Shown here piece after piece: positions 16,910 through 31,902 of a stretch of DNA of 64,000 bases. Origin of the DNA: Haloarcula halobia (GTDB lineage: Archaea; Halobacteriota; Halobacteria; Halobacteriales; Haloarculaceae); assembly GCF_029338255.1 (NCBI RefSeq), contig NZ_CP119787.1:1178001-1242000 (forward strand), given 5' to 3'. The position numbers were made by a program, and so were the translations under genes. A model generated the notes under the pieces. It was not told the origin of the DNA and did no database searches. It worked only from the letters and a program-made list of their open reading frames with translations. Every line of letters begins with the position of its first letter. The first letter of the stretch is position 1.

Positions 16910-17794
16910 TCAACCCGTGCAGAACGTGTCGATCGCGGCGCGATACCCCTCCCGGAACGTCGGGTAGGCAAACTCGTAGCCCAGGTCCTGCAGCCGGTCG
17001 TTCGAGCACCGCTTGCTGGTCTGTATGCGACGGCGGGCGGTCGACGATAGCGTCTCGTCGTCCAGTCGCTCCGCTTTCGTCTGCTTGGGCGGGCGGGAAA
17101 CGCCACACTGGTCGGCCAGCCAGTCGGCAAACGCCCACTTCTCGACCGGTTCGTCGTCGACCACCAGGACCACCTCGTCGCGGTGCCCGCCTTCGAGCAG
17201 GAACCGGACCGCCCCCGCCGCGTCGTCGCGGTGGACCATGTTGAGATAGCCCTCCGTGACGGGGCCGTCGAGATAGCGCTCCAGCCGGTAGCGCTCGGGG
17301 CCATAGAGGCCGGCGAACCTGGCGACGGTGCCGTGGCCACCCCGAGCAGCCGGTCGCTCGCGAGCGACGCGCTCTGCCGCCGCGAGCACTTCGGTCTTCT
17401 CGGTCTGTGGGGCCAGCGGGGTCGTCTCGTCGACCCAGTCGCCGCCGTGGTCGCCGTAGACGCCGGTGCTCGACGTGTAGACCAGCCGGTCGGGGGCGTC
17501 CGCGCGGGCCCAGAAGTGGTCGATAGCCGTCCGCAGGCCCTCGACGTACACCTCGCGGGCCGCCTCGGCACCCCGGCCACCCGAACTCGCGGCGAACACC
17601 ACCCAGTCGGCGTCGGGCACGGCCTCGAGCGCCGCCGGGTCGGTGACGTCCGCCCGCACGCCGTCGAACCCGGCGTCCTCGATGGCTTGTACGCCCGCTT
17701 CGGAGCGACGAACGCCGACGACGTCGTGGGCCGGTGTCAGCTGCCGACCCAGCTCGAGGCCGACGTACCCACAGCCCAGTATCGCGACCCGCAT
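16910..17794 (-). CDS. NAD-dependent epimerase/dehydratase (extended SDR)
   Basis: The 294-residue protein starts MRVAILGCGYVGLELGRQL, a GxGxxG Rossmann motif. It has VVFAASSGGRG, then YTSSTGVYGDHGGDWVDE with the active-site Tyr in an ST/Y arrangement, and RFAGLYGPERY. It resembles YeeZ-type atypical SDRs found across haloarchaea. The substrate is unknown, possibly a nucleotide sugar or a quinone/terpenoid intermediate. It begins 2 nt after the stop of the upstream DUF5791 gene, so they form a two-gene operon. Confidence 0.86.
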   Translation of the reverse strand: MRVAILGCGYVGLELGRQLTPAHDVVGVRRSEAGVQAIEDAGFDGVRADVTDPAALEAVPDADWVVFAASSGGRGAEAAREVYVEGLRTAIDHFWARADAPDRLVYTSSTGVYGDHGGDWVDETTPLAPQTEKTEVLAAAERVARERPAARGGHGTVARFAGLYGPERYRLERYLDGPVTEGYLNMVHRDDAAGAVRFLLEGGHRDEVVLVVDDEPVEKWAFADWLADQCGVSRPPKQTKAERLDDETLSSTARRRIQTSKRCSNDRLQDLGYEFAYPTFREGYRAAIDTFCTG

Positions 17795-17796
17795 CG

Positions 17797-18225
17797 TCAG
17801 TGCGCCGCGCTCTCGATGTGCTGGTGGAGGACGGCGTACTCGGCGACGGTCATCGGGTGACGTCCCTCGATCTTCTGCTGTATCTCCTTCGGTTCCATCG
17901 CGTCGTCGATGCCCGACGCCAGCGATTCGACGTCCATCACCGCCGTCGTCATCCCCATCAGGAGGATGTCCTGGGCCTCGGCCTGGATGGCGTCGGCGTC
18001 TGGCCGCTCCGGGTCCGTCGCGAGCACGGCGGCGGCGTCGGACAGCGAGAGGTCGGCCGCGTCGCCGGCGCCGACGGCCTCGACCGTCTCCGGGTCGAGC
18101 CCCGTCGCCTCGACGACTCGTTCGACGCCGACCGATTCGACGGTGTCCGCGAGCACGGCCTCGTAGGCCGCGAGCAACTCCTCGGCCGTCCGCTCGCCCG
18201 CGTCCGGGAACTCGGCTCTGAGCAT
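17797..18225 (-). CDS. DUF5791 family protein
   Basis: The 142-residue protein begins MLRAEFPDAGERTAEELLAA and has the highly conserved stretches LLMGMTTAVMDVESLASGI and EPKEIQQKIEGRHPMTVAEY, which I recognise as DUF5791. The central part, VVEATGLDPETVEAVGAG, resembles a helix-turn-helix. The function is not established; the pattern of a small helical protein with an HTH-like core would fit regulation. It is directly followed by the epimerase gene on the same strand. Confidence 0.8.
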   Translation of the reverse strand: MLRAEFPDAGERTAEELLAAYEAVLADTVESVGVERVVEATGLDPETVEAVGAGDAADLSLSDAAAVLATDPERPDADAIQAEAQDILLMGMTTAVMDVESLASGIDDAMEPKEIQQKIEGRHPMTVAEYAVLHQHIESAAH

Positions 18226-18266: not shown

Positions 18267-21200
18267 TCACGGGCCGGGCGTTGGCCACCCCGCCGACGTT
18301 TCGACGGCCTGGCCGTCCTTGTCACCGACGCCCCGCGGCCGTGGCGGCACCACGACCACGACGCCCGTTTCGGCCCTGAACGAGACGCGGCTGGCGGTCC
18401 CCAGTCGCTCGGGGTCGCCGTCGCCGTCCACGTCGAGTCGGACCGGGTCGCCGTCGCGGACGTACGACGTCGTGGCGCCCGGTGTGGCCGGTGACCCGTA
18501 CGGTGCCGTCACGCGAAAGCGTGCGTACTCCCCCCGCACGGAGACCCACCAGACGTTCGCCGTCGCGTACCACGCCGACAGCGGCGGGGCGAGCGGCAGG
18601 CCGGACGGGAGCGTACTGGTGCCGACACGGCGCTCGACGGTCCGCTCTACCTGCGTTCGGCCTGCGTCCGCGAGCGCTCTGGTCGCCTCCTTCCGGGCGA
18701 CCGACCGCACCGCCGTCGCGGTCCTGTTCACCGCGCTCGCCCGCGGGCGCACCTCTGACCGTTCGAGCGTGTCGGCGACGGCTCCCCGGAGACGCACGCC
18801 GAGCCAGTCCCGTTCCGTCGTCGAGAGAGCGAGTCTGGTCGCCGCGACGCGGGCGACACGCCGCGGCGCCGACCCGTTCGCGAGGGCCAGTCCCCGCGTG
18901 GCCGTCCCGTTCCAGTCCCTCAACGCGGCGGCGACGATCGCCCGACTCGCCCGGGCGTCGGTGCCGGTGGTCTCCCCGATCGTCGCCGCCATGGCGCGTG
19001 CGGCCGCTTCGTTGGTCTCGGCGACCTGTGCTGCCAGCCGCCCTCGCCCGACCACGCCGGACCCGTTCGCCGACTCGCTTGCCGTCCGGTCGGCTGCAGC
19101 GAGTGTCCGGGCCGCCGTCGCGAGCCGCGCCCGTCTGGCCGACCTCCCGAGTCCGTCCGTGACCGCCGCGGCGGCGTCGCCGTACGGGACGGCGAAGACG
19201 TTGACGTTGCGGGCCACCAGCGGGTGTTCGCGTCCCTCGACCGCCGGGAAGTTACGCTCCGACAGCGCGGCCCGGGTGAGGTACTGCGGGCTCGCGTCGA
19301 CCCGGAGGTCGACCGGTCCCGCGGGGCCCGTCGGCGTCGGGCGGGGCTGTGGTTGCTGTGTCGCGCGGGCCGCTAGTCCGCGCCTGAGGTCGGTCAGTGA
19401 GCCGCCGGTACGATTCCGGACGACCCGTCCGAGCTTCTCGCCGGCACGGCTGCGCCGGCGGACACGATCGTCGAGTCGGCGTTCGACCGCGTTCAGGTAC
19501 GCGATGCGGGCCGCCACCTTGGCCTTCTCGGCCGTGCTCCCGTAGGTCTCGGGGGCGGCGGTCAGGTTCTGACGCCGCTCTGTCACCCGCTGGCGGAGTC
19601 GTCGCGCGGGATTCGTCTCGAAGGTCCCGACGGGACCTCGCTCTGCCGAGACGGAGACGTTGCGCAGGCGTTCGCGGAGGGCAGCGAGGTCACGGTATAC
19701 CCACGCCCGCAGTCTGTCTGGACGCTCGCCGTAGACGGTGATCGCCGCCGTCTCGAGGTCACCGCGCACGGCCCGCTTCGCGAGGACGTCTCTGCCGCCC
19801 GCCCGACGCACCAGGTGTCGATCTGCCCTGGCCGCGACGTCTGCGAGGTTCGGACCCGAGAGGGGACCGGCACCGCGCTCGTGGGCCGTCCGTATCGGCC
19901 GTGGCGGGGCGATCGACTCCCCCTCGTGGCGACCGAGGACGGCGACGGACACGCGCCAGCGCGCCGTACTCGTCGTCGCCGTCGTCCGCGTCTCGTTCCC
20001 GGTCTCCCAGACGGCCCTCCGGGTGTACTCGCGGACGACGACGCGGCCGAAGTTGTCCAGTGTGTGCCAGCCGTCGGGGCCGGTGACGTCCGGAGGTGCC
20101 GGGCCGGCAACCGTCGTCCGCCTGGTCGTCTCCTCGTCGGCGAGCGTCCAGTCGGGTCCGGGCGACGGTGGCCGCCCCGGTGGCCCGCCGCTCACGCGCT
20201 CGGTCGCCGCGGCCAGTCGGACGTCGACGCTGTAGGCCGCGCGAAGCGTCCGATCGAGCTGTGCCGGGGCTGCGACAGTGCGGAAGCCGTCGACCGCGGT
20301 CTCCTCGAGCCCGATGCGGACCGGCGTCTCCGGGCCGGGCGCATCCGTCGGCCGGTCCAGGGTGCTGATGGCTTCGGCCGCCGGCCGGTACTCGGCCCTG
20401 TCGAGTACGCGGCCGGCGAGCGCCGCCCCGTCGCTCCCGCGGACGACGTCCTCGATCCCCGTCACCGCAGTCGCCTCGGTGAGCGCCCGGCGGCCGTCGG
20501 GGTCGCTCCGGCCGATGGTCGACCGCTGGACGCCCAGCAGCGCCCCGTTCGCGGCCAGCGCGACGTGGCGGTTCGCGACGACGTTCTCGAGGGGTGCGCC
20601 GCCGTACTGGGCGTAGCCGCGCGCCCACGCGATCGGGTAGAGACGCGCTGTCAGACGGCGGCTCAGCCCCGCCCTCCCGAGGCCAGCGTTCAGCTGCTCC
20701 TCGTAGGCCGCCACGCGGTCGTGGAGCAGGAGGACGGGCGTCGGCACGACGACGCTGGGCGAGCGGACGCGCCTCGTGACGGTCCGCCCGCCTCGGCTGA
20801 CGGTGAGCGTGACGTTCTCGACCGTCGCGCGCGTCGCGGTTCCGTTCGGGCCGGCCCGGGCCAGGTGGACGCGCTCGATGGCCTCCCGGACGTCGCTGGC
20901 GTTCTCGACCGGGGGCAACCGCGCCGTCGCGGTGGTACCCTCGCTCGTCTCCGACACGCCGGCGAGTCGCCGGCGAACCTGCAGGTACGCCCGCAACCGG
21001 AGCGCGTCGCGGAACGGTGTCGACTCGTTCAGGACCCGGCCGACGGTGGTGTTGGCGGGCCGTGTCACCGGATTCGCCGCAGCGCGGTGGGCGGCCGTCG
21101 CCACGCCGTCCCGGACGGCCGTCTGTGTCTCGGCCGTCGTCTCGTCGAGGACTCGCTCGACTGCCGTCTCGGTCGGTGGCGCGGTCGGTGCGAGCGTCGG

Positions 21201-21278
21201 CGCGAGCGAGAGGCTGCTCACGAGCAGCAACACGCCCAGCAGTGCGAACGGGACCCGGCCGCGCGTGTCGGCGATCAC
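18267..21278 (-). CDS. Giant membrane-anchored protein of the Tad-like operon (DUF7286-like, 1003 aa)
   Basis: This is the last gene of the pilus-like operon. The GTG start at 21278 overlaps the previous TGA as GTGA; the frame stays open far upstream but that part overlaps the preceding genes. The N-terminus has IADTRGRVPFALLGVLLLV, a short basic segment with RG before a hydrophobic helix, reminiscent of a pilin or TadE-type anchor. The remaining roughly 960 residues are Ala/Arg/Thr-rich, predicted extracellular, with several NxT/NxS sequons (for example NTT, NVT, NVS, NRT). A Trp/Tyr-rich segment at about 940-960 and a DVDGDGDPERLG repeat-like acidic patch precede the end. I link it from memory to DUF7286. 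It may be a large pseudopilin or tip/adhesin; this is inference. Confidence 0.8.
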   Translation of the reverse strand: MIADTRGRVPFALLGVLLLVSSLSLAPTLAPTAPPTETAVERVLDETTAETQTAVRDGVATAAHRAAANPVTRPANTTVGRVLNESTPFRDALRLRAYLQVRRRLAGVSETSEGTTATARLPPVENASDVREAIERVHLARAGPNGTATRATVENVTLTVSRGGRTVTRRVRSPSVVVPTPVLLLHDRVAAYEEQLNAGLGRAGLSRRLTARLYPIAWARGYAQYGGAPLENVVANRHVALAANGALLGVQRSTIGRSDPDGRRALTEATAVTGIEDVVRGSDGAALAGRVLDRAEYRPAAEAISTLDRPTDAPGPETPVRIGLEETAVDGFRTVAAPAQLDRTLRAAYSVDVRLAAATERVSGGPPGRPPSPGPDWTLADEETTRRTTVAGPAPPDVTGPDGWHTLDNFGRVVVREYTRRAVWETGNETRTTATTSTARWRVSVAVLGRHEGESIAPPRPIRTAHERGAGPLSGPNLADVAARADRHLVRRAGGRDVLAKRAVRGDLETAAITVYGERPDRLRAWVYRDLAALRERLRNVSVSAERGPVGTFETNPARRLRQRVTERRQNLTAAPETYGSTAEKAKVAARIAYLNAVERRLDDRVRRRSRAGEKLGRVVRNRTGGSLTDLRRGLAARATQQPQPRPTPTGPAGPVDLRVDASPQYLTRAALSERNFPAVEGREHPLVARNVNVFAVPYGDAAAAVTDGLGRSARRARLATAARTLAAADRTASESANGSGVVGRGRLAAQVAETNEAAARAMAATIGETTGTDARASRAIVAAALRDWNGTATRGLALANGSAPRRVARVAATRLALSTTERDWLGVRLRGAVADTLERSEVRPRASAVNRTATAVRSVARKEATRALADAGRTQVERTVERRVGTSTLPSGLPLAPPLSAWYATANVWWVSVRGEYARFRVTAPYGSPATPGATTSYVRDGDPVRLDVDGDGDPERLGTASRVSFRAETGVVVVVPPRPRGVGDKDGQAVETSAGWPTPGP

Positions 21279-22147
21279 GGCGACCACGTCCTGACGGTGA
21301 TGTGGACGGTCTCCGTGTCGACGGCCGCTGTGGCCGCCGCCGGTGACTCGAAGCGGGAGCGCAGGTCCGCGGTCAGCAGATCCGTCAGCGCCACCGTCAG
21401 CTCGCGGTTCGTCGCCGCCACGGACTGGCCACCGACGTCGAGCGGATCCACACCGGTGATCCGACCGACTCGCCGGTAGCGCCGAGCGACCACTGCGTCG
21501 TCCGGATAGTCCCCCTGGAGGGCGACGCGGCTCCGGTCTGGAGGGAAGAGCCCGTCGACGACCGTCTTGGCGACGGCGCGTGCGACGCCGCGGTAGCCGG
21601 CCTCTCGTGTTGCTACCCGTGTGCTGCTCGTCGCGTTGCCCAGGCCGCTCGCGACGGTGACCGTGGCCGCGCGCACGTCGGCCGACGCCGGCGGTCGCGG
21701 ACCGAGCCTGAACCTGCCCGTCACCGGCGCGCCGGGATACAGGGTCCACGTCACACGGACGCTCGTCCGGTAGCGCCGGTCCGCGAGTCGTCGCCCGACG
21801 GTCGCACCGACCTGCTGCTCGAACCGTCGGCCCGCGAGCGAGACGCGCGTCCCGTCGATGCGGACGCGACTCATCGCCGCCTCGCCGAGCAACGCCGCGA
21901 GCGTCCCGTGAGCGGTCCGCTGGCGCCTGGCAGACGCGTCACCGACCCACGAGGGTTCGGGGCCCGGCACGACGAGTTCGTAGTCGACGGCCGCGGTACT
22001 CGTCGCGAGCAGTTCCCCCCGCTCGCTCGCGGGGTTCCCGGCTGGCGGCCCCTCGACGGTGGCGCCCCCGACGAGCGCCGCGGCCGCCGCCCCGACAAGC
22101 AGCAGGAACAGCGCCACGTCCAGGACGGTACTCGTCGCGCGCGTCAT
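21275..22147 (-). CDS. Membrane-anchored pseudopilin-like protein (DUF7284-like)
   Basis: The 290-residue protein begins MTRATSTVLDVALFLLLVGA, a basic start followed directly by one hydrophobic helix. The rest is predicted outside the membrane: PEPSWVGDASARRQRTAHGT, VRVTWTLYPGAPVTGRFRLG, and a helical C-terminus ending TVHITVRTWSP. The start codon overlaps the upstream stop (ATGA), and the stop overlaps the next GTG start. The strict coupling within the pilus-like operon implies a structural or assembly partner. No enzyme motif is visible. The DUF number is from memory. Confidence 0.8.
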   Translation of the reverse strand: MTRATSTVLDVALFLLLVGAAAAALVGGATVEGPPAGNPASERGELLATSTAAVDYELVVPGPEPSWVGDASARRQRTAHGTLAALLGEAAMSRVRIDGTRVSLAGRRFEQQVGATVGRRLADRRYRTSVRVTWTLYPGAPVTGRFRLGPRPPASADVRAATVTVASGLGNATSSTRVATREAGYRGVARAVAKTVVDGLFPPDRSRVALQGDYPDDAVVARRYRRVGRITGVDPLDVGGQSVAATNRELTVALTDLLTADLRSRFESPAAATAAVDTETVHITVRTWSP

Positions 22148-22533
22148 CGCCACACCCGGACCGTGAGACGGCCACGACGAATCACTCCCGCCCCCAGTCG
22201 GACACTCACCACGCGTGTCGCCGTGTCGGCGGCGGGCGGCGGCGTCGGCCCGACAGCCCACCGCTGTGCGCTCTCCAGGGTCACGTTCCCCTCGTATCCC
22301 GACGGTATCGCTTCGCGAACGCTCGCGAGGCGGCCGGGCGAGACGATCCCAGCCGGCGCGAGGTGCCGCTCGACGGCGTCCGCGGTGGCCGCGGCCCGGT
22401 TTCGCGTCCCCGTCGCGTCCGCCACGGCCTCGTCGAGGACGCCCGCGTACAGCGACAGACCGAGCGCGACGGCTGTCACGGCGACCAGCGCCGCTGTCGG
22501 CTCTACCGCGCCCCTAGCCGACGAGCGTGACAT
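22144..22533 (-). CDS. TadE-like pseudopilin candidate (DUF7285-like)
   Basis: The 129-residue protein begins MSRSSARGAVEPTAALVAVT. The RG-AVE stretch before a hydrophobic helix resembles the N-terminus of TadE-type pseudopilins (RG-x-x-x-E). Residues 12-35 are the helix; the exported part follows, with a central helix (ADAVERHLAP) and a beta-rich end (TRVVSVRLGAGVI, RLTVRVW). Its first 20 nt overlap the upstream gene and its stop overlaps the next ATG. A processed pilin subunit is a plausible role, but the cleavage site is not a textbook match. Confidence 0.78.
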   Translation of the reverse strand: MSRSSARGAVEPTAALVAVTAVALGLSLYAGVLDEAVADATGTRNRAAATADAVERHLAPAGIVSPGRLASVREAIPSGYEGNVTLESAQRWAVGPTPPPAADTATRVVSVRLGAGVIRRGRLTVRVWR

Positions 22534-22975
22534 CGCTCCCTCCCCAGACGACGTGTCTGACGGTCAGTCGGTCGGGCGCCGGACGCCACCTGCCGGTGGC
22601 AGTCGTGCCCCGGCGCACCGCTCGCCTGAACGCCGTCGGCGACGTGAACACCTGCCCGGGTGTCCCCTCGCGGAGCACCTGTCTGAGCGGTCCGGTACCG
22701 ACCGGGACGGCTCGCCGGGTGAGCCGTGCGTGGGCTGTCCCGCCATCGTTTCGCAGTCCGAGCCGTCGCCCGTCCAGGCGCCACGAATCGGCGGCTAGCG
22801 GTCGGCGACGGACCGACCCCGGCGGGCTCGTCGTCACTTCGTCGATGGTCGCTGCCATCCCCGCGGCGTCGGGCGGCGCCGTCGTCGGCACGTTCCCGAC
22901 GACGCCGAGCACGGCGACGGCGACGGCGCCGAGTGCGATCCAGAGCAGCAGCGTATCGACCGGTGTCTCGAACAC
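22514..22975 (-). CDS. Membrane-anchored small protein of the pilus-like operon (DUF7283-like)
   Basis: The 153-residue protein begins MFETPVDTLLLWIALGAVAV with a single membrane helix (about 8-28). An exported domain follows, containing DSWRLDGRRLGLRNDGGTAH, TPGQVFTSPTAFRRAVRRG and a beta-strand end, VWGGSDVTLVG. It follows the GspF-type gene after a 33-nt gap, the only real gap in the operon, so an internal initiation or processing point may lie there. Its own stop lies inside the next gene. Confidence 0.78.
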   Translation of the reverse strand: MFETPVDTLLLWIALGAVAVAVLGVVGNVPTTAPPDAAGMAATIDEVTTSPPGSVRRRPLAADSWRLDGRRLGLRNDGGTAHARLTRRAVPVGTGPLRQVLREGTPGQVFTSPTAFRRAVRRGTTATGRWRPAPDRLTVRHVVWGGSDVTLVG

Positions 22976-23008
22976 AGCGGACCTGGTCCCGCTCTCGGAT
23001 ATAAACCT

Positions 23009-24721
23009 TCAGACGATCAGCCGGGTCGCGAGGACGGCCGCCACGTACGTCGCCGTCGCCGAAAGGAGTGCCGTCCCGACGCGGTACCCCACGCGCGCCC
23101 TGTCGACCCCGTATCGCAACCCGGTCGAGAGCGCTGTCAGGACGCCCGCGAGGACGAGGACGTACCAGCCGACGACGAGGCCCACCGACTCGACGGGTGG
23201 CCCTCCGAGGGGGCCTGCGGTCCCCATCGTCCCTGCGAGCGCGACGGTCGCACCAGCCACGAGCGGCCCGAACAGGGCGGCCGTGTTCGACAGCGTCCCG
23301 GTGACCTGTGCCAGGTCGCGGCGCAGGTCCCGCTCCACGCTCCGGAGTGCCGACAGGTGCTCCCCCAGTGCCGAGAGCGAGTCAGCAGCGGGCGGCCCGA
23401 TAGTGGCTGCGGCCCCGAGCAACGTGGCTGTCTGGCGCGTCCGTGGACTCGGGACCGTCGCGAGCGCGCCCCGGTGAGCCAGGAACGCCGTCTCGACGTC
23501 GACACCCAGGACCGCCTGTCGCTCTGTGGCCTGCTGGAGTATATCTGTCAGTGGGCCGGACTGTGTCTCCGCGACGTCGGCGAGGGCTGCCTCGACGGAC
23601 TGGCCGCGGTCGATCCGGTCGGCGACGGCCGTCAGGGCGTCCGGGAGACCGCGCTCGATGGCGGTCACGCGCTCGCGGACCCGTCGCGCCGGTCGGTGGT
23701 GGACGACAAGTGCGGCTCCGAGACCCGCCCCCAGCACGACGATCGGAACTGCCCACGCCAGGCCGATGGCGTGGACGAAGGCGCCAGCGGCACCACTCGC
23801 ACCGATGCCAGCGCCCGCCGCTCGCCGGCGCCCGTCCGGGACGGCAGGGTGGCTCTGGGGCACCGCTGCGGTCGGGAACGCGACGGGGCGCTGGCAGAGG
23901 AGCCACCCGCTCGCGAGACAGAGCGCAGCCGGGAGGACCACCCCGTAGGCAGCGACGAGGAGCGGCGTCCCCACCGGGACGCCGGCCGCGCTCGCCGCCG
24001 GGAGCATCGAGACCAGCGCCAGCGGCAGCAAGACGCCGAACGCGTAGAGCCCCGTGGCCGGTGCACGGAGCCCGGCGGCGAACGCACTCGTCTCCTGGCG
24101 GACCCCCTCGAGGACACACTGGCGAGCGGATCCGAGCGTCGTCGTTCTCTCGTCCGGTGGTCGGGCGGTCGCCCGATCGATTCGCTGGACTGCGTCCGGT
24201 AGCGCCGGCATCGACTCGTCCCACTGGCTGGCGAACGCGTCCAGCCCACTCCGTGGCGTTCCCGCTGCGCGTCGAGCGTGGGCGGCGAGGGAATCGGCGA
24301 GCGGCCGGTCGGTGGCCCGCGTGGCGAATTCCGTCGCCCGCTCGCTGCTCCCCCACAGCGCCGCTCCGAGAGTGAGCATCGTCACCAGCGACGGCGCGGC
24401 GCTCAGCATCCGGAGGCGTTTCGCCCGGGCCACGACGGGGACCCCGTACCGGACGACCAGCGCGAGCGCCGACGAGAGGAGGAGTGCCGCGAGGCCGGTG
24501 ACGGCGACGAACTGAGCACCTCCGAGCGCGACGAGCACCACTCCGACGACCGTTCCGACCGTCGCGACGGTGTACACGGCCGCGAGCAGGGACGCCGGCC
24601 ACACCGGCAGCTGGAGCAGGTCGCAGGCCCGGCGAAACGCGGGCGGGACGTCGACGGACCACGGCCAGGCACTCGCACACGGTTCGACGACCCGCGAGAG
24701 CAGGCCGGTGCTCCCGCTCAC
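23009..24721 (-). CDS. Type IV pilus/T2SS platform protein (GspF/PilC/TadC family)
   Basis: The GTG start (VSGSTGLLSRVVEP) overlaps the upstream ATPase stop as GTGA, giving 570 residues. Several membrane helices alternate with two cytoplasmic T2SSF-type domains, the archaeal PilC duplication. The first (about 105-240) is weakly conserved. The second (about 350-500) has ERGLPDALTAVADRIDRGQS, LAHRGALATVPSPRTRQTAT and AADSLSALGEHLSALR. It would be the inner-membrane platform that the ATPase drives to assemble pili. The weak first domain hints at specialisation. Confidence 0.87.
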   Translation of the reverse strand: MSGSTGLLSRVVEPCASAWPWSVDVPPAFRRACDLLQLPVWPASLLAAVYTVATVGTVVGVVLVALGGAQFVAVTGLAALLLSSALALVVRYGVPVVARAKRLRMLSAAPSLVTMLTLGAALWGSSERATEFATRATDRPLADSLAAHARRAAGTPRSGLDAFASQWDESMPALPDAVQRIDRATARPPDERTTTLGSARQCVLEGVRQETSAFAAGLRAPATGLYAFGVLLPLALVSMLPAASAAGVPVGTPLLVAAYGVVLPAALCLASGWLLCQRPVAFPTAAVPQSHPAVPDGRRRAAGAGIGASGAAGAFVHAIGLAWAVPIVVLGAGLGAALVVHHRPARRVRERVTAIERGLPDALTAVADRIDRGQSVEAALADVAETQSGPLTDILQQATERQAVLGVDVETAFLAHRGALATVPSPRTRQTATLLGAAATIGPPAADSLSALGEHLSALRSVERDLRRDLAQVTGTLSNTAALFGPLVAGATVALAGTMGTAGPLGGPPVESVGLVVGWYVLVLAGVLTALSTGLRYGVDRARVGYRVGTALLSATATYVAAVLATRLIV

Positions 24722-26574
24722 GGTGTCGACCCCGCACTGTCGTCCGCACTGGTTTCCTCGCCACGGTGGCACTCGAAGGTCCCCGTTCGGTCGTCGACGG
24801 TCGCCAGCACGGACTCGTAGGACTCCCCCGGGCCCCGAAGCGCGTCGACCAGGTGGCTCGTGCCCCGGGCGAGCCGGCCCGTCGCAATCGCCGTCGCGCC
24901 GTCGCGCTCGTAGAGCGTCTCGAACCGGGCCCCGGATTCGGTCCCGACGACCTCCTGGACGCGCTCGACGCCGCGGCCCGCACTGGAAGTGGGGGGCGCG
25001 AGTGTCACCACCAGGTCGGTCGCCGCGAAGGACCGTGGCGGGACCCCGAGGTCGGTGACGAGTCGTTCGCGGACCGCCTCGGACCCGTCGCCGTGTATCG
25101 TCCCCAGGACGGCTCCGTCGCCGCCGCCGACGCGCATCGCCTCGTAGAGGACGCTCGCCTCCTCGCCGCGCACCTCGCCGACGACGAGCGCGCCCTCGCC
25201 GAGGCGGAGTGCCGTCCGCAGCGCCTCGTCCGGTGCCACCGAGGGACCGTCGCCGGTGGTCGTCCGCAGCGCCTGGACGTCCCGTTCCGCGGCCTGCAGG
25301 TCGTCGACGGGCAGTTCCGGGGTGTCTTCGATGACGAGGGTCCTGACCGACCGGGGGAGTTCCCACAGGAGCGCGCCCAGGAGCGTCGTCTTCCCGGCAC
25401 CGCGCGGCCCGGCGACGAGACATGCGCTCCCCCGCTCGACGGCCACCGACAGCAGCCCGGCCACGGCGGGCGGCATCGACCCGGCCGCGACCAGGTCCCG
25501 CAGATCCCAGCACTCCTCGTCCTGTGCGCGGAACGCGAACGCGAGGCCGTCGCTGACCGGTTCGGTGACACCCGCCACCCGGATCTGCCGGTCGGCCACC
25601 GTCGCCGTCGCGTCCAGCGTGGGACTCGCTCGGGAGAACGAGCGGCCGCTCGTCCGGCGGAAGGTGGACGCGAGCGCCTTGGCCCCCACGTCCGTGAGGC
25701 GGACGTTCGTCCGGCGCGTCGCACCGTCGACGCGCACGCGGAGCGCGTTCTCCGCGACCGGTGCGGTGGCGAAGACGTCCGAGACGCGCGGGTCGGCAAA
25801 GAGGTCCTCGAGGATACCGAGGCCGGCCGTGTGCTTTGCCAGCACCGCCCCCACGGCCGCTGCCGTCTCGCCGTCCGTACAGACCGCTCTGGCCGCACGT
25901 CTGGGGGTCGTCTGCTCGTCGCCGATGGCGCACACCAGTCGCTCGTGTGCGCGCTGGAGCGTCGCCGTGGCCGACTCGTCGAACCGCTGTTCCCGTGGTT
26001 CGACGTGGTACGCGTCCAGCCGACCGGACGGCGTCGCGTACCGTCTGGCCACCGCGCCCGTCTCGAGGGTCTCGCGGTCCTGCAGTGTCGCCTCGGGCGG
26101 CGGCGCGGTGCCGACGCGCGCGTCGCTCACTGCGGGCCCGGTGTGACAGGAAAGCGCCCTGTCGTAGTCGTCGGCCCGCTCGGCCAGCAACGCGAGTCCC
26201 GTCTCGGCGGCCAGGTCCGCGACGGTGCCGGTCCGGCCCGCCGCCTCGCTGGCCGCGGCGAGGGGGTCGCGCTTCGCCCGACGCGCTACCCGCTCGTCGA
26301 TGGGCGCCACGCGGGTGGCGAACCGGCCGGCGGCGACCAGGAGGGCCGCGGCGTCGTCGCAGTAGGCACGCTCGGTCCCTGCGCGTTCGACGACCACACT
26401 GTCGACGTCGGTCCCCCCGAGCGCGTCGACCACCGTCGCTCGACAGGCCGACGCTGTCGCGAGGGCACCCGACCCCGGACAGGCCGACGCGTCGACGGTC
26501 AGGGTGTCCCGGTCGAAGGCGACCGCACACTCGCAGTCGGCCGGGGCCGCCGACCCGGGTGACGTCTCACTCAT
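24718..26574 (-). CDS. Type IV pilus/T2SS/Tad assembly ATPase (GspE/PilB)
   Basis: The 618-residue protein has a divergent N-terminal region (about 1-200) and a GspE core. Walker A is GPRGAGKTTLL (about 389-399), the Asp box TLVIEDTPELP (about 412-422), Walker B GALVVGEVRGEEA (about 461-473), and the His box GTIHGDGSEAV (about 491-501). It would power pilin polymerisation or secretion at the membrane together with the next gene. The N-terminal cysteines (CECAVAF, ACPGSG, CDDAA) might bind a metal but form no clear motif. The start overlaps the upstream stop by 8 nt. Confidence 0.92.
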   Translation of the reverse strand: MSETSPGSAAPADCECAVAFDRDTLTVDASACPGSGALATASACRATVVDALGGTDVDSVVVERAGTERAYCDDAAALLVAAGRFATRVAPIDERVARRAKRDPLAAASEAAGRTGTVADLAAETGLALLAERADDYDRALSCHTGPAVSDARVGTAPPPEATLQDRETLETGAVARRYATPSGRLDAYHVEPREQRFDESATATLQRAHERLVCAIGDEQTTPRRAARAVCTDGETAAAVGAVLAKHTAGLGILEDLFADPRVSDVFATAPVAENALRVRVDGATRRTNVRLTDVGAKALASTFRRTSGRSFSRASPTLDATATVADRQIRVAGVTEPVSDGLAFAFRAQDEECWDLRDLVAAGSMPPAVAGLLSVAVERGSACLVAGPRGAGKTTLLGALLWELPRSVRTLVIEDTPELPVDDLQAAERDVQALRTTTGDGPSVAPDEALRTALRLGEGALVVGEVRGEEASVLYEAMRVGGGDGAVLGTIHGDGSEAVRERLVTDLGVPPRSFAATDLVVTLAPPTSSAGRGVERVQEVVGTESGARFETLYERDGATAIATGRLARGTSHLVDALRGPGESYESVLATVDDRTGTFECHRGEETSADDSAGSTP

Positions 26575-27040
26575 CGGCGGCCTCCCGTGAACGGTTCCCC
26601 GCCAGCCGCCGGACGGTCACGACCGGTGCGCCGTCGCGGCCGGCCAGTTCGAACGCGAGCCGGTGTGTGCCGGCCGCCGCCAGCGTGAGCACGCCACCGA
26701 CTGGACGTAGTGGGACGTCGACAAGCAGCTGCCGGCCGCGGTGGCCCGCCCCGACCTGCCAGGTCACGACGCCTACCCCATCGCGGTCGTGGAAGGTGAC
26801 TCGATCGACGCGGGCACTGGTCAGCGACCGCCCGGGCAGGCGCAGCGTCGCCACCACTCGCGCGCTCGCTCCCCGGCCTGGGTCGTCCGCGGCGACCAGG
26901 TGCCCGAGTCGGTCCGACAGCGCCCCGAGTTGCCGTTCGAGCGTCGCGTCAGTGCGCTCGACGCCCGCCGCCGAGATAGCGGGCGTGCTCACCGCGAGTA
27001 GCGCCCCCGTCACGACGGCCGCCAGCACCAGGCGAACCAT
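26567..27040 (-). CDS. Secreted/anchored accessory protein of the pilus-like operon (DUF7311-like)
   Basis: The 157-residue protein begins MVRLVLAAVVTGALLAVSTP, a Sec-type signal peptide with likely cleavage after AISAAG. The mature part holds ARVVATLRLPGRSLTSARVD, VGVVTWQVGAGHRGRQLLVD, and a beta-rich C-terminus. The ATG at 27040 overlaps the upstream TGA by one base. The ATPase gene starts before this stop. It is probably extracytoplasmic and specific to this machine. The DUF number is from memory. Confidence 0.75.
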   Translation of the reverse strand: MVRLVLAAVVTGALLAVSTPAISAAGVERTDATLERQLGALSDRLGHLVAADDPGRGASARVVATLRLPGRSLTSARVDRVTFHDRDGVGVVTWQVGAGHRGRQLLVDVPLRPVGGVLTLAAAGTHRLAFELAGRDGAPVVTVRRLAGNRSREAADE

Positions 27041-27675
27041 CACAGGTACGCCCGTATCCGGGCGAGCACTCCGGGCTCGTCGGCCGCGTCCGGGTCCCGG
27101 TCGGACGCTCCCTCCGTGAGCGACGTGAGGTCGTCCGTGTCGTGACCGCCCCCACTGCCGGCCGGCGCGCTGTCGAACTCGGTGGAATCCTGCGCGTGCG
27201 CTGGCCGCCCGTCCGGAGGTCGGATTTCATCTGCCGCGTCACAGCGCTGGTCGACAGAGTCCGGTCCGCGCTGTCCGGTCAGCGTGTCTTCCACCCCGTT
27301 CTGCCCGGCGACTGTCTCGTCCGGGCCGCCCTGTCCGGTCGGCGTGCCGTCACCCACCGGGGCGGTCCTGCCCCGCCCGGGCAGCTCCTCGTCCAGTCGC
27401 CGTTCCAGTCGGTCGGTCGCAGCGAGGGCCGCGTCGGCGCGCTGTTCGACGTCCTCGTTGACCGAGCGGACGTTCCCGACGTACCCGCGGAGCGCCTGGG
27501 TCGCCGCCTCCAGTTCGGTCGTCCGGTCGTCGATGTCCGCGACGCGGTCCTCCAGCGCCTCGATGCGCGTCTCCAGGTCGGCGAGTGCCGTCGCGTCGGG
27601 GAACTCGCTCTCGCCGTCGGTGACGGCCCGTTCGACGGTCCGGACGCGCTCTGCCAGCGTTTCGAGGTCGGTCAT
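27040..27675 (-). CDS. Coiled-coil protein at the head of the pilus-like operon (DUF7310-like)
   Basis: The 211-residue protein begins MTDLETLAERVRTVERAVTD. Residues 1-95 form a heptad-rich coiled coil (ALADLETRIEALEDRVADID, LERRLDEELPG). A long disordered acidic region follows, with Thr-Gly-Gln-rich repeats around 110-140 (PTGQGGPDET, TLTGQRGPDS). It ends EPGVLARIRAYL, a short amphipathic tail. There is no signal peptide, so it is cytosolic, perhaps regulating the ATPase. It is the first gene of the eight-gene operon. Confidence 0.75.
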   Translation of the reverse strand: MTDLETLAERVRTVERAVTDGESEFPDATALADLETRIEALEDRVADIDDRTTELEAATQALRGYVGNVRSVNEDVEQRADAALAATDRLERRLDEELPGRGRTAPVGDGTPTGQGGPDETVAGQNGVEDTLTGQRGPDSVDQRCDAADEIRPPDGRPAHAQDSTEFDSAPAGSGGGHDTDDLTSLTEGASDRDPDAADEPGVLARIRAYL

Positions 27676-27881
27676 GGCCGGGGGTGGTCCCGTCCCCGTA
27701 CTTGAACCCTCGGACGCGGCGCTCCCGAGGGTTTATGCCGTATCCGGGGGCAAGCGACGCTCGTGTCCGGAACCGACCAGAGGAAGGCGGCGTTCGAGCC
27801 CTACCGCCGGACGGCCGCCGGCGACCACTTTCACCGCGCTCGCGACACCTCTTTACGCGGGGCTGGCGTACGCCACGGCAA

Positions 27882-29219
27882 ATGACACGGGTGATACACA
27901 CCGGTGACACCCACATCGGGTACCAGCAGTACCACGTGCCCGAACGCCGCCGGGACTTCCTCGCGGCGTTCCGGCAGGTCGTCGACGACGCCGTCGACGA
28001 CGACGTCGACGCGGTGGTACACGCCGGCGACCTGTTTCACGATCGCCGGCCGACGCTCACCGACATCCTGGGGACCCTCGAGGTGCTCGAGACGCTGGAC
28101 GAGGCCGGAATCCCGTTTCTCGCCGTCGTCGGCAACCACGAGGCGAAACGGGACGCCCAGTGGCTCGACCTCTACGAGTCGCTGGGACTGGCGACGCGGC
28201 TCGGCGCCGACCCTACCGCCGTCGGCGACACGGCGTTCTACGGGCTCGATTTCGTCCCGCGGTCCCAGCGCGAGGACCTCGCGTACGAGTTCGCGCCGTC
28301 CGACGCCGAGCACGCGGCGCTCGTCACGCACGGCCTCTTCCAGCCGTTCGACTACGGCGACTGGGACGTGAGCGAGGTGCTCTCGGCGGCCACCGTCGAC
28401 TTCGACGCGATGCTGCTGGGCGACAACCACGCGCCGGGCAAACAGCGCGTTGAGGGCGCCTGGGTCACCTACTGCGGGTCGACCGAGCGCGCGAGCGCGA
28501 GCGAACGCGACGACCGGGGGTACAACATCGTCACCTTCGACGGCGAGGTCCGCATCACGCGCCGTGGCCTGGAGACCCGCGAGTTCGTCTTCGTCGACGT
28601 CGAACTCGACGGCGAGGAGGGGGCAGACCGCGTCCGTCGCCGCGTCGGACAGCACGACCTCGAGGACGCCGTCGTCGTCGTGACAATCGACGGCGAGGGC
28701 GACCCGATCGCCCCCGCGAGCGTCGAGGAGTTCGCGCTCGACGCCGGGGCGCTCGTCGCTCGCGTCACCGACCACCGGGAACTCGCGACCGAGGACCGCG
28801 AGACGAGCGTGAGCTTCGCCGACCCGGACGAGGCCGTCACCGAACGGGTCCGCGAACTGGGGCTGAGCGGGGCCGCCCGCGACATCGACGAGACGGTCCG
28901 CGCGTCGAAGGTCGCCGACTCGAACGTCGCCGACACCGTCGAACAGCGGGTCCGCGACCTCGTGGAGGCGGACCCGGACGCCCTGACCGCGGCGGTCGAC
29001 CGGTCGAGCGAGGACGCCGAGACGGGCGTCGAGGACAGGGGCCCGGCCGGAGACGACGCTGACGCACAACCCGACGGGAGCGACGCGTCGACGGGCGGCG
29101 CGGAGGCGCGCGCTGCGGAGACCGACGCCCCGGCGGACGGGTCCGACGCACCAGCGGAGGAGGTCGACGCATCGGCACCCCGTTCCGACAGCCAGGCCGA
29201 CATGGGGGAGTTCCTGTGA
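27882..29219 (+). CDS. mre11: DNA double-strand break repair nuclease Mre11
   Basis: The 445-residue protein has the calcineurin-like phosphoesterase motifs: [12 protein letters not shown] (about 4-15), [13 protein letters not shown] (about 46-58), [11 protein letters not shown] (about 80-90), LVTHGLFQP, and [10 protein letters not shown] in place of the usual GHxH. These bind two Mn ions. With Rad50 it processes DNA ends. The C-terminal 100 residues are a disordered acidic Ala/Asp tail ending [13 protein letters not shown]-like CTCTTTACG about 28 nt upstream fits a leaderless transcript. The rad50 start follows 13 nt after the stop. Confidence 0.94.
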
Positions 29220-29232
29220 CGGGGGGCCGCCG

Positions 29233-31902
29233 ATGAGGTTCCAGCGGGTCCGCCTGGAGAACTTCAAGTGCTACGACGACGCCGACCTGCGACTCGACCG
29301 CGGCGTGACCGTCATCCACGGCCTCAACGGGAGCGGGAAGTCCTCGCTCCTGGAGGCCTGTTTCTTCGCGCTCTACGGCTCGAAGGCCATCGACGAGACC
29401 CTCGAGGAGGTAGTCACCATCGGTGCCGAGGACTGCACCATCGAACTCTGGTTCGCCCACGGCGGCACGGAGTACCACCTCACCCGCCGCGTGCGCAACA
29501 CGGGCGAGCAGGCCCAGACGGCAAAGTGCGTCCTCGAGACGCCGGAGGGGACCTTCGAGGGGGCCCGCGACGTCCGCGGGCGCGTCACCGAACTGCTCCG
29601 GATGGACGACGAGGCGTTCGTCAACTGCGCGTACGTCCGCCAGGGCGAGGTCAACAAGCTCATCAACGCCTCGCCACGCGAGCGCCAGGACATGCTCGAC
29701 GACCTCCTCCAGCTCGGGAAGCTCGAGACCTATCGGGAGCGCGCGAGCGACGCCCGTCTCGGGGTCGGGCGCGTACGCGACGACAAACAGGGGGCACTCT
29801 CGCAACTGGACGAACAGATCGCAGAGAAAGCGGACAAGGACCTCCACGAGCGACTGAACTCCCTGGAGACGCGCCGGAGCGAGGTCAACGAGAAGATAGA
29901 GCAGTTCACCGAGCAGCGAGAGCAGGCCCGGGAGACCCTCGAGCAGGCCACCACCGTCCTCGAGGAACACGCGGAGAAACGCGAGGAGCTCGCCGCGCTC
30001 GAGGACGACGTCGCGTCGCTCCGGGAGGCGATAACCGAGACCGAGACCGAGCGGACGCGGCTCAAGGACCGCATCTCGGACGTGCGCACCGAGCGCGAGT
30101 CGCTCGAGGCGGACCTCGAGGAGACGCTCGCGGACACGGAGCTGGCGGCGGCGGACCCCGACGCCGTCGCAGGTCGCCTCGAGACGCTCGAGGAGCGCGA
30201 CGAGGAGCTCCAGGCCAGGATCGAGGACGAGCGCGTCGAGGCACAGAAACACAGCGGCGAGGCCGACTCGCTGGCCGAGACGGCGACCGACCTCGAATCG
30301 CGGGCCGAGTCCAAGCGGTCCGAGGCCGACGCGCTGGCCGAGGAGGTCGAGGCGGCCCGCGAGACCATCGCCCAGCGCCGCGAGAAGCTCGACGACATCG
30401 ACGACGACATCGCTAGTCTGGAGGCACGATTCGAGTCGGCGTCCGTCGGTCGTGACGAGGTCGGGAGCCACCGCGACGACGTCGCGGCGGAGCTGCGCGA
30501 GGCGCGACAGCGCGTGACCGAGCTGGAGACCACCCTGGACAAGGAGCGCGAGTCGCTGGCGGAGGCCGAGGCGCTGCTCGAGGCCGGCAAGTGCCCCGAG
30601 TGTGGCCAGGACGTCGAGGACTCGCCCCACGTCGACTCAATCGAGGACGACCGGGAGCGTGTCGCCGACCTGGAGGCCGACCTCGAAGCCGCCCGGGAGA
30701 CGGTCGCGGAACTCGAGGCCGACCTCGAGGACGCCGAGGCGCTCGTCGAGGCGGCCGACGACCTGGCGACGCTCGAGACCAACCGGGAGAACGTCGCCCA
30801 GCTGGTCGCCGAGAAGGAGCGCGGTATCGACGACGACCAGGAACGCATCGAGACGCTGCGCGAGGCGGCCGCGGAGCTGGAGTCGCGGGCCGAGAGAAAG
30901 CGCGAGGCCGCCGCCGAGGCACGCGAGGAAGCCGAGGCGTGCCGGTCGGTCGTCGCCGAGTGCAACCAGGAGCGCCAGACCGTCAAGTCGGCCCTCCAGC
31001 GACTCGAGCGCGTCGAGGAGTTGCTCGGTGAGATAGCGGAGCGCGAGGAGACGGCCGAGCGCCTGCGCGAGAGACGCGAGCAGCAGGCCGAGCTGAACGA
31101 CCAGCGCCGCGAGCGACTGGCCGACAAGCGGGAGCGAAAGGAGGAACTGGAGGCCGAGTTCGACGACGAGCGCATCGACCAGGCCCGCTCGCAGAAGGAA
31201 AATGCCGAGGCCTACATCGAGAAGGCCGACGGGAAACTCGACGAGCTCCGGGCGACGCGCGACGACCTCCAGAACGCCATCGGCGGCGTGCGAAACGAAC
31301 TCGAGGAGCTCGAGACACTCCGCGAGCGGCGCGAGGACCTGGAGACGACCCTGGCGAACCTCGAGGCACTCTACGACGAGACCGAAGACCTCCAGGAGAT
31401 GTACGGGCGCCTCCGTGCGGAACTGCGCCAGCGCAACGTCGAGACTCTCGAGCGGATGCTCAACGAGACGTTCCGGCTCATCTACCAGAACGACTCGTAC
31501 TCCCACATCGAACTCGACGGCGAGTACGAGCTGACGGTGTACCAGAAGGACGGCGACCCGCTGGAACCCGGCCAGCTGTCCGGCGGGGAGCGGGCGCTGT
31601 TCAACCTGAGCCTGCGCTGTGCCATCTACCGCCTGCTCGCGGAGGGCATCGAGGGGTCGGCTCCGATGCCGCCGCTCATCCTGGACGAACCGACGGTGTT
31701 CCTCGACTCGGGCCACGTCACGCAGTTGCTGGACCTGGTGGCGTACATGCGCGACGAGGTTGGCGTCGAGCAGATTCTCGTCGTCAGCCACGACGATGAG
31801 CTCGTCGGCGCGGCCGACGACCTGGTCCGCGTCGAGAAAGACGCCACCTCGAACCGCTCGCGGGTCGACCGGGTCGAAGCGTCGGTGGCGGAGTTAGTCT
31901 GA
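29233..31902 (+). CDS. rad50: DNA double-strand break repair ATPase Rad50
   Basis: The 889-residue SMC-like protein has Walker [10 protein letters not shown] (about 30-38), the Q-loop region with [11 protein letters not shown] (about 136-146), a long coiled coil, and the zinc hook [10 protein letters not shown] with Cys454 and Cys457. The coil returns to the signature [10 protein letters not shown] (about 782-791) and Walker [14 protein letters not shown] (about 812-824), then a D-loop/His switch VVSHDDEL. It bridges broken DNA ends with Mre11. The last 9 nt overlap the convergent regulator gene. Confidence 0.96.

Follow-up and report, generated by a model that had tools for sequence, protein, structure and literature searches.

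A predicted type IV filament operon of Haloarcula halobia that very probably is the catalogued pilB2/pilC2 regulon and encodes a giant candidate pilin-type subunit

A stretch of 64,000 nucleotides (nt) from the Haloarcula halobia genome (contig NZ_CP119787.1, positions 1,178,001 to 1,242,000), called the window here, carries eight intact, co-oriented genes, g1–g8, which run from position 27675 to 18267 of the window on the minus strand. Coordinates without a locus name are positions in the window. We consider it likely that the operon builds a short surface type IV filament, either a pilus or a pseudopilus, and the locus has very probably been catalogued already as the pilB2/pilC2 regulon. The genes for an assembly ATPase (g3, T2SSE family) and a membrane platform (g4, T2SSF family), both of the type IV filament superfamily, stand together with g1, g2 and g5–g8, and g2 and g3 co-occur with g8 across genomes, which supports the filament reading. 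A preliminary description of this DNA had proposed a type IV filament-type machine, and the sequences of g3 and g4 support that proposal.

The g3 protein belongs to the VirB11/GspE family of ATPases by its above-cut-off match to PF00437, and its nearest sequences in the PDB are the GspE-type 2oap, CpaF and FlaI. The g3 orthologues form their own clade in a tree (support 0.999). NCBIfam models gave generic, sub-threshold matches only, with the TadA family at the top. The g4 protein on its own matched PF00482 weakly (21.1 bits, cut-off 25.2); in the genome search it reached 25.4 bits, above the cut-off, and it adjoins g3 in nearly all relatives. A Tad identity was considered and rejected. The score of g3 against TIGR03819 (TadA) was 123.5 bits, with a cut-off of 373, and a Pfam search with 33 g6 homologues did not yield TadE at E≤0.1, so the likeness to TadE that had been proposed for g6 is not supported. 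As had been noted, no prepilin peptidase gene is nearby; the only one found in the genome, a Peptidase_A24/Arc_PepC_II protein, is encoded at C1:567412, distant from the operon.

In archaeal prepilins, a basic residue followed by Gly or Ala immediately precedes the helix (PMC4371748). We scored this signature, [KR][GA] directly before the single N-terminal helix, in distinct homologues of each family. It was present in 73 of 82 homologues of g6, 57 of 88 of g7 and 59 of 75 of g8; the non-carriers g5 and g2 had it in 0 of 60 and 10 of 61. Pilin-like proteins from other loci of the genome scored positive in the same scan. The family patterns are R[GA]QxEP for g6, R[AG]xSTVxD for g7 and R[GA]RVPFA for g8, and in this genome g6 reads RG/AVEP against the family R[GA]/QxEP (a slash marks the predicted cleavage site). 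The signatures of g6, g7 and g8 are those of class III signal peptides, with cleavage predicted. The RG sites reported earlier in the 129-residue g6 and before the helix of the 1003-residue g8 were thus confirmed. The count of four exported, pseudopilin-like partners has to be revised: in haloarchaea the site is carried by three of them, g6, g7 and g8, and g5 resembles a pseudopilin only through a weakly matching methanogen counterpart. The N-terminus of g5, described as short and basic, is acidic (MFETPVD), and g2 is probably exported too. Sub-threshold matches to DUF7287 were found in 7 of the 33 g6 family members, and to DUF7263 in one; both families reside in pilB-type loci of the genome. 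On this evidence g6 is a candidate main filament subunit, and our best guess for g7 and g8 is that they are minor or tip subunits. The g8 protein resembles a giant, unusual subunit of the pilin type and is a candidate tip or stalk protein.

The AlphaFold2 (AF2) model of g7 (predicted local distance difference test score, pLDDT, 91.6) has an N-terminal helix at residues 5–26 with an alpha/beta body behind it. The model of g8 (pLDDT 79) has an N-terminal helix at residues 9–29 and several mixed domains. The best VIA-align results, Z 6.4 for g7 (a ribosomal protein domain) and Z 5.5 for g8, are unrelated proteins and not meaningful. Profiles of the g5–g8 families matched PDB sequences at chance level only, and the methanogen g2 profile matched the type IV pilin PilE1 weakly (E=0.025). 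An S-layer role for g8 was rejected as less likely, as its sequence shows no sign of a C-terminal membrane helix.

The operon encodes five helix-anchored proteins, one of them very large, which in number resembles the GspG–K set of the type II secretion system, and no PilA-type major pilin is found in the locus. Both points would suit a type II-like pseudopilus, in which g6–g8 are a piston that exports a substrate and never form an external fibre. This is improbable, however, as haloarchaea have no outer membrane for the piston to cross, neither a secretin nor a linked substrate gene was seen, and neither sequence nor fold comparisons gave a match to GspG–K.

The six partners of g3 and g4, described earlier as of unknown function, each match their own Pfam DUF family (Table 1). 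Overlapping start and stop codons, which had been thought to join all eight genes, are found at six junctions (g1/g2, g2/g3, g3/g4, g5/g6, g6/g7 and g7/g8); between g4 and g5 lie 33 bp that contain a TATA-like box. In a set of 80 named loci, gaps of −4 or −1 nt recur at g1/g2 (46 of 68), g6/g7 (55 of 80) and g7/g8 (60 of 80), and the recurrence of the g1–g8 overlaps in relatives is far above chance. A TATA-like motif lies approximately 24–31 nt before g5 in 57 of the 80 loci and before g6, g7 or g8 in none of the 80. The TTTATAT before g5 likely serves as a leaderless promoter for a second transcription unit. Because the box at g4/g5 is conserved, there are probably two units, g1–g4 and g5–g8. 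A scan for sigma-70-type promoters and terminators gave nothing, as expected for an archaeon.

Table 1. Genes and other features of the operon and its downstream flank.
Feature	Position	Strand	Description	Match
g1	27040..27675	-	211 aa, cytoplasmic coiled-coil protein, DUF7310	Pfam PF23991 1.2e-29
g2	26567..27040	-	157 aa, N-terminal helix, probably exported, DUF7311	Pfam PF23993 1.6e-31
g3	24718..26574	-	618 aa, PilB2-type assembly ATPase, cysteine-containing N-terminal extension	T2SSE (PF00437) 6.1e-19
g4	23009..24721	-	570 aa, PilC2-type membrane platform	T2SSF (PF00482) 3.3e-4
TATA-like box TTTATAT	22999..23005	-	24-30 nt upstream of g5 start	
g5	22514..22975	-	153 aa, DUF7283, N-terminal helix, without prepilin-type site	PF23954 3e-43
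g6	22144..22533	-	129 aa, DUF7285, prepilin-like RG/AVEP	PF23956 1.5e-30
g7	21275..22147	-	290 aa, DUF7284, prepilin-like RA/TSTVLD, alpha/beta body	PF23955 1e-80
g8	18267..21278	-	1003 aa, DUF7286, prepilin-like RG/RVPFALLGV, Arg at +1	PF23957 E=0
g9	17797..18225	-	DUF5791, conserved downstream neighbour	PF19104 1.2e-48
NAD-dependent epimerase	16910..17791	-	conserved neighbour of cetZ2/pilB2 region	PF01370 1e-11

Across the 80 named loci and another 24 genomes, the usual gene order is g1–g8 followed by DUF5791. The closest named relative is Halomicroarcula sp. SYNS111, with 88% identity in g8. The ratio of nonsynonymous to synonymous substitution rates (dN/dS) against this relative is 0.15–0.42, and the range widens to 0.15–0.47 across two relatives; all eight genes are under purifying selection. 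The downstream g9 (DUF5791), which persists after loss of the pilus genes, is probably not part of the machine.

In most related loci a CetZ-motif gene is divergent to g1. The CetZ copies of Haloferax and of one further locus (L050) have 4b45 as their closest PDB sequence, which we take to be Haloferax CetZ2. No CetZ gene lies beside the operon in this window; Mre11- and Rad50-like genes are upstream (27831–31902), where most relatives outside the genus have cetZ2. The pilB2/pilC2 regulon beside cetZ2 is reported with a sugar epimerase (arCOG03095) and arCOG04674 as neighbours (PMC9856176). Here, g8 is followed by the DUF5791 and epimerase genes, candidate counterparts of these neighbours. The adjacency of cetZ2 in relatives and the epimerase beyond DUF5791 led us to match the locus to this regulon, and the system can no longer be called undescribed.

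The divergent cetZ2 of most loci (the 4b45 match) and the coiled coil of g1 would also fit a CetZ2-coupled machine that gives the envelope its shape or steers surface sensing, to which a fibre would be secondary. In the early phase of biofilm growth, cells deleted for cetZ2 have an altered shape (PMC10606840). However, many genomes have a CetZ gene beside DUF5791 and no pilus genes there, the operon of the window lacks such a neighbour, and adjacency is not interaction. We regard this reading as quite improbable.

DUF7286 and DUF7284 also co-occur in methanogens of the phylum. Methanosarcina acetivorans was among the named controls, and we infer from it that the other genomes of this set are methanogens. 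The order in two methanogen loci (L083 and L084) is coiled coil, g2-like, g5-like, g6, g7, g8 and a secreted protein of approximately 200 residues; the ATPase and platform are located elsewhere (L208–L210). In the ATPase tree, the haloarchaeal g3 clade has a methanogen ATPase as its sister (support 0.998), and hhalign of haloarchaeal against methanogen profiles gave 99.7% for g6 and 95.5% for g2. Reading frames of DUF7286 span approximately 930–1,460 residues in methanogens versus approximately 1,000 in haloarchaea. Since most parts have methanogen relatives, the system is probably older than Halobacteria. The methanogen g2-like and g5-like proteins carry a Gly/Ala site before the helix, and haloarchaeal g2 and g5 may therefore have lost it. 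The N-termini of the methanogen ATPases (L208–L210) contain 17–20 Cys and 2–3 CxxC motifs; the paralogues scanned contain at most 7 Cys and zero CxxC. In one locus of a Methanosarcina-like genome (L086:13086–19425), full-length DUF7286 is followed by tandem stand-alone copies of its C-terminal part (approximately 270–310 residues), and these cassettes also hold paralogues of the ~200-residue secreted protein, with a YYND motif and no Pfam family.

Within the class, 299 of 391 genomes, from 66 of 86 genera, contain DUF7286. In Haloferax volcanii, the named control, DUF7286 is accompanied by DUF7284 and DUF7311. Both DUF7311 (g2) and g3 orthologues are absent from all 31 genomes that lack DUF7286, and 19 of the 20 genomes that contain DUF7286 also contain g2 and g3, unlinked cases included. 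In some lineages the g1–g4 and g5–g8 units lie apart in the genome and still co-occur. Three loci of one haloarchaeal family (L078, L080 and L081), with g5–g8 apart from g1–g4, have an enlarged DUF7283 of approximately 310–360 residues. Another genome (G058) has two g2/g3 pairs and two DUF7286 loci (C1:840230 and C1:1036424 of that genome), a duplicated system.

Remnants of the operon were found as well. At the cetZ–DUF5791 site, g1(1–32) is joined to g8(621–1009) in L076, and g1(3–108) to g8(786–1008) in L079; the remnants thus include an N-terminal part of g1 fused in frame to a C-terminal part of g8. Other loci retain g1 and g8(766–1008) (L236), g1, g2(1–73) and g8(964–1008) (L237), g8(934–1008) (L238), a broken g8 (L239), or a g3 fragment against DUF5791 (L241 and L242); in L238, L241 and L242, no CetZ gene was seen within the stretch examined. 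The different breakpoints in several genera indicate repeated independent deletion, and they point to repeated independent loss, not recent gain, as the source of the patchy distribution. The same patchiness (299 of 391 genomes) had suggested a mobile or recently acquired pilus cassette beside cetZ2 (PMC9856176), which is very unlikely given the differing breakpoints between cetZ2 and DUF5791 and the related gene set in methanogens.

If the operon builds a short filament, as we favour, Sec would insert g6, g7 and g8 with the N-terminal helix in the membrane, and the distant PibD-type peptidase would clip them at [KR][GA]. The g3/g4 pair would then extrude them as a helical bundle, in which g6 would be the repeating subunit, while g7 and g8 would take minor or tip positions and provide the contact function. 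The g2 and g5 proteins, which resemble methanogen prepilin-like proteins but lack the site, would be membrane-anchored assembly partners. The coiled coil of g1 would serve as a cytoplasmic adaptor that regulates the ATPase, possibly with the CetZ2 tubulin. The output would likely be adhesion or cell contact.

Several observations weigh against this filament. The +1 residue of g8 is Arg in 59 of 60 anchored sequences, and because this is unusual, cleavage of g8 is uncertain. One third of the g7 homologues lack the prepilin-type site. For g5, hhalign against the methanogen counterpart was weak (44.9%). In one genome (G045, locus L072), g6-g7-g8 are retained although neither a g2 nor a g3 orthologue was found anywhere in it, so strict interdependence of the parts does not hold; this orphan pilin module may use another PilB. 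Two CetZ-like genes adjoin g6-g7-g8 in that genome. Searches of the g7 and g8 models by Foldseek and VIA-align revealed no known pilin fold and, at E≤0.001, nothing in the PDB, though absence from such lists shows little. A literature search found no functional test of, or experimental data for, the pilB2/pilC2 locus, and a search by the DUF names found nothing.

A bolder proposal, which we hold to be doubtful, is that DUF7286 is a processed giant prepilin with Arg at +1, placed as the tip of a short filament of DUF7285 whose assembly the CetZ2 cytoskeleton positions, and that this system is ancestral to Halobacteria and the carrier methanogens and was repeatedly lost in haloarchaea. If true, this would be a cytoskeleton-guided archaeal pilus with a subunit far beyond the usual size range of pilins.

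The machine is carried by about three quarters of the Halobacteria sampled. With the likely subunits named here and the methanogen counterpart, the six DUF families become a model that can be tested in an archaeon amenable to genetics. Added here are the prepilin signature on the giant g8 with its non-standard +1 Arg, the likely, conserved second promoter before DUF7283, the co-occurrence of unlinked parts, the methanogen set and the remnants between cetZ2 and DUF5791, which argue for repeated loss where recent gain had been proposed.

Among known systems, bacterial Tad/CpaF is similar in the ATPase, with TadA as the top NCBIfam score and CpaF near g3 in the PDB, and in having a small RG-type pilin-like protein. 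It differs in that the locus has no TadE/TadF match, no TadZ gene and a single platform gene. The PilB3/C3 and PilB4/C4 pili of Haloferax volcanii share the ATPase/platform superfamily, class III prepilins and one shared prepilin peptidase. Unlike these, the g3 orthologues form their separate clade and the pilin families are others (DUF7287/7288/7289 in the pilB4-type locus). The genome itself has two pilB4-type loci, one (L092) with the class III proteins DUF7287/7288/7261/7266/7289 and the other (L093) with one DUF7289 and similar RG-type proteins. A further pilus locus upstream of the window (C1:1156500–1172000; L094:3872–10753) has the prepilin-like DUF7261, DUF7262 and DUF7263 and its own divergent ATPase and platform.

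Clade 4F of the archaeal type IV pili has a cysteine-rich N-terminal ATPase domain, the coiled-coil protein arCOG07564 and an FtsZ-like neighbour (PMC4858521). The locus and its relatives share the cysteine-rich ATPase N-terminus (strongest in methanogens), the FtsZ-like neighbour and a coiled coil (DUF7310, a candidate for arCOG07564); g1 probably corresponds to the coiled-coil subunit reported from the halobacterial members of clade 4F. The PilA-family major pilins proposed for this clade were not recognised in the locus. PilB2 has been placed in clade 4C (PMC6491452), and the 4C/4F label is unsettled. Compared with the pilB2/pilC2 regulon (PMC9856176), the window differs in that Mre11/Rad50-like genes stand upstream and cetZ2 is not adjacent, and the remnants point to loss rather than the proposed recent acquisition. 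The two agree in the ATPase, the platform, several predicted pilins and one surface protein, and in relatives cetZ2, the epimerase and a small hypothetical gene adjoin the operon, as they do in the regulon.

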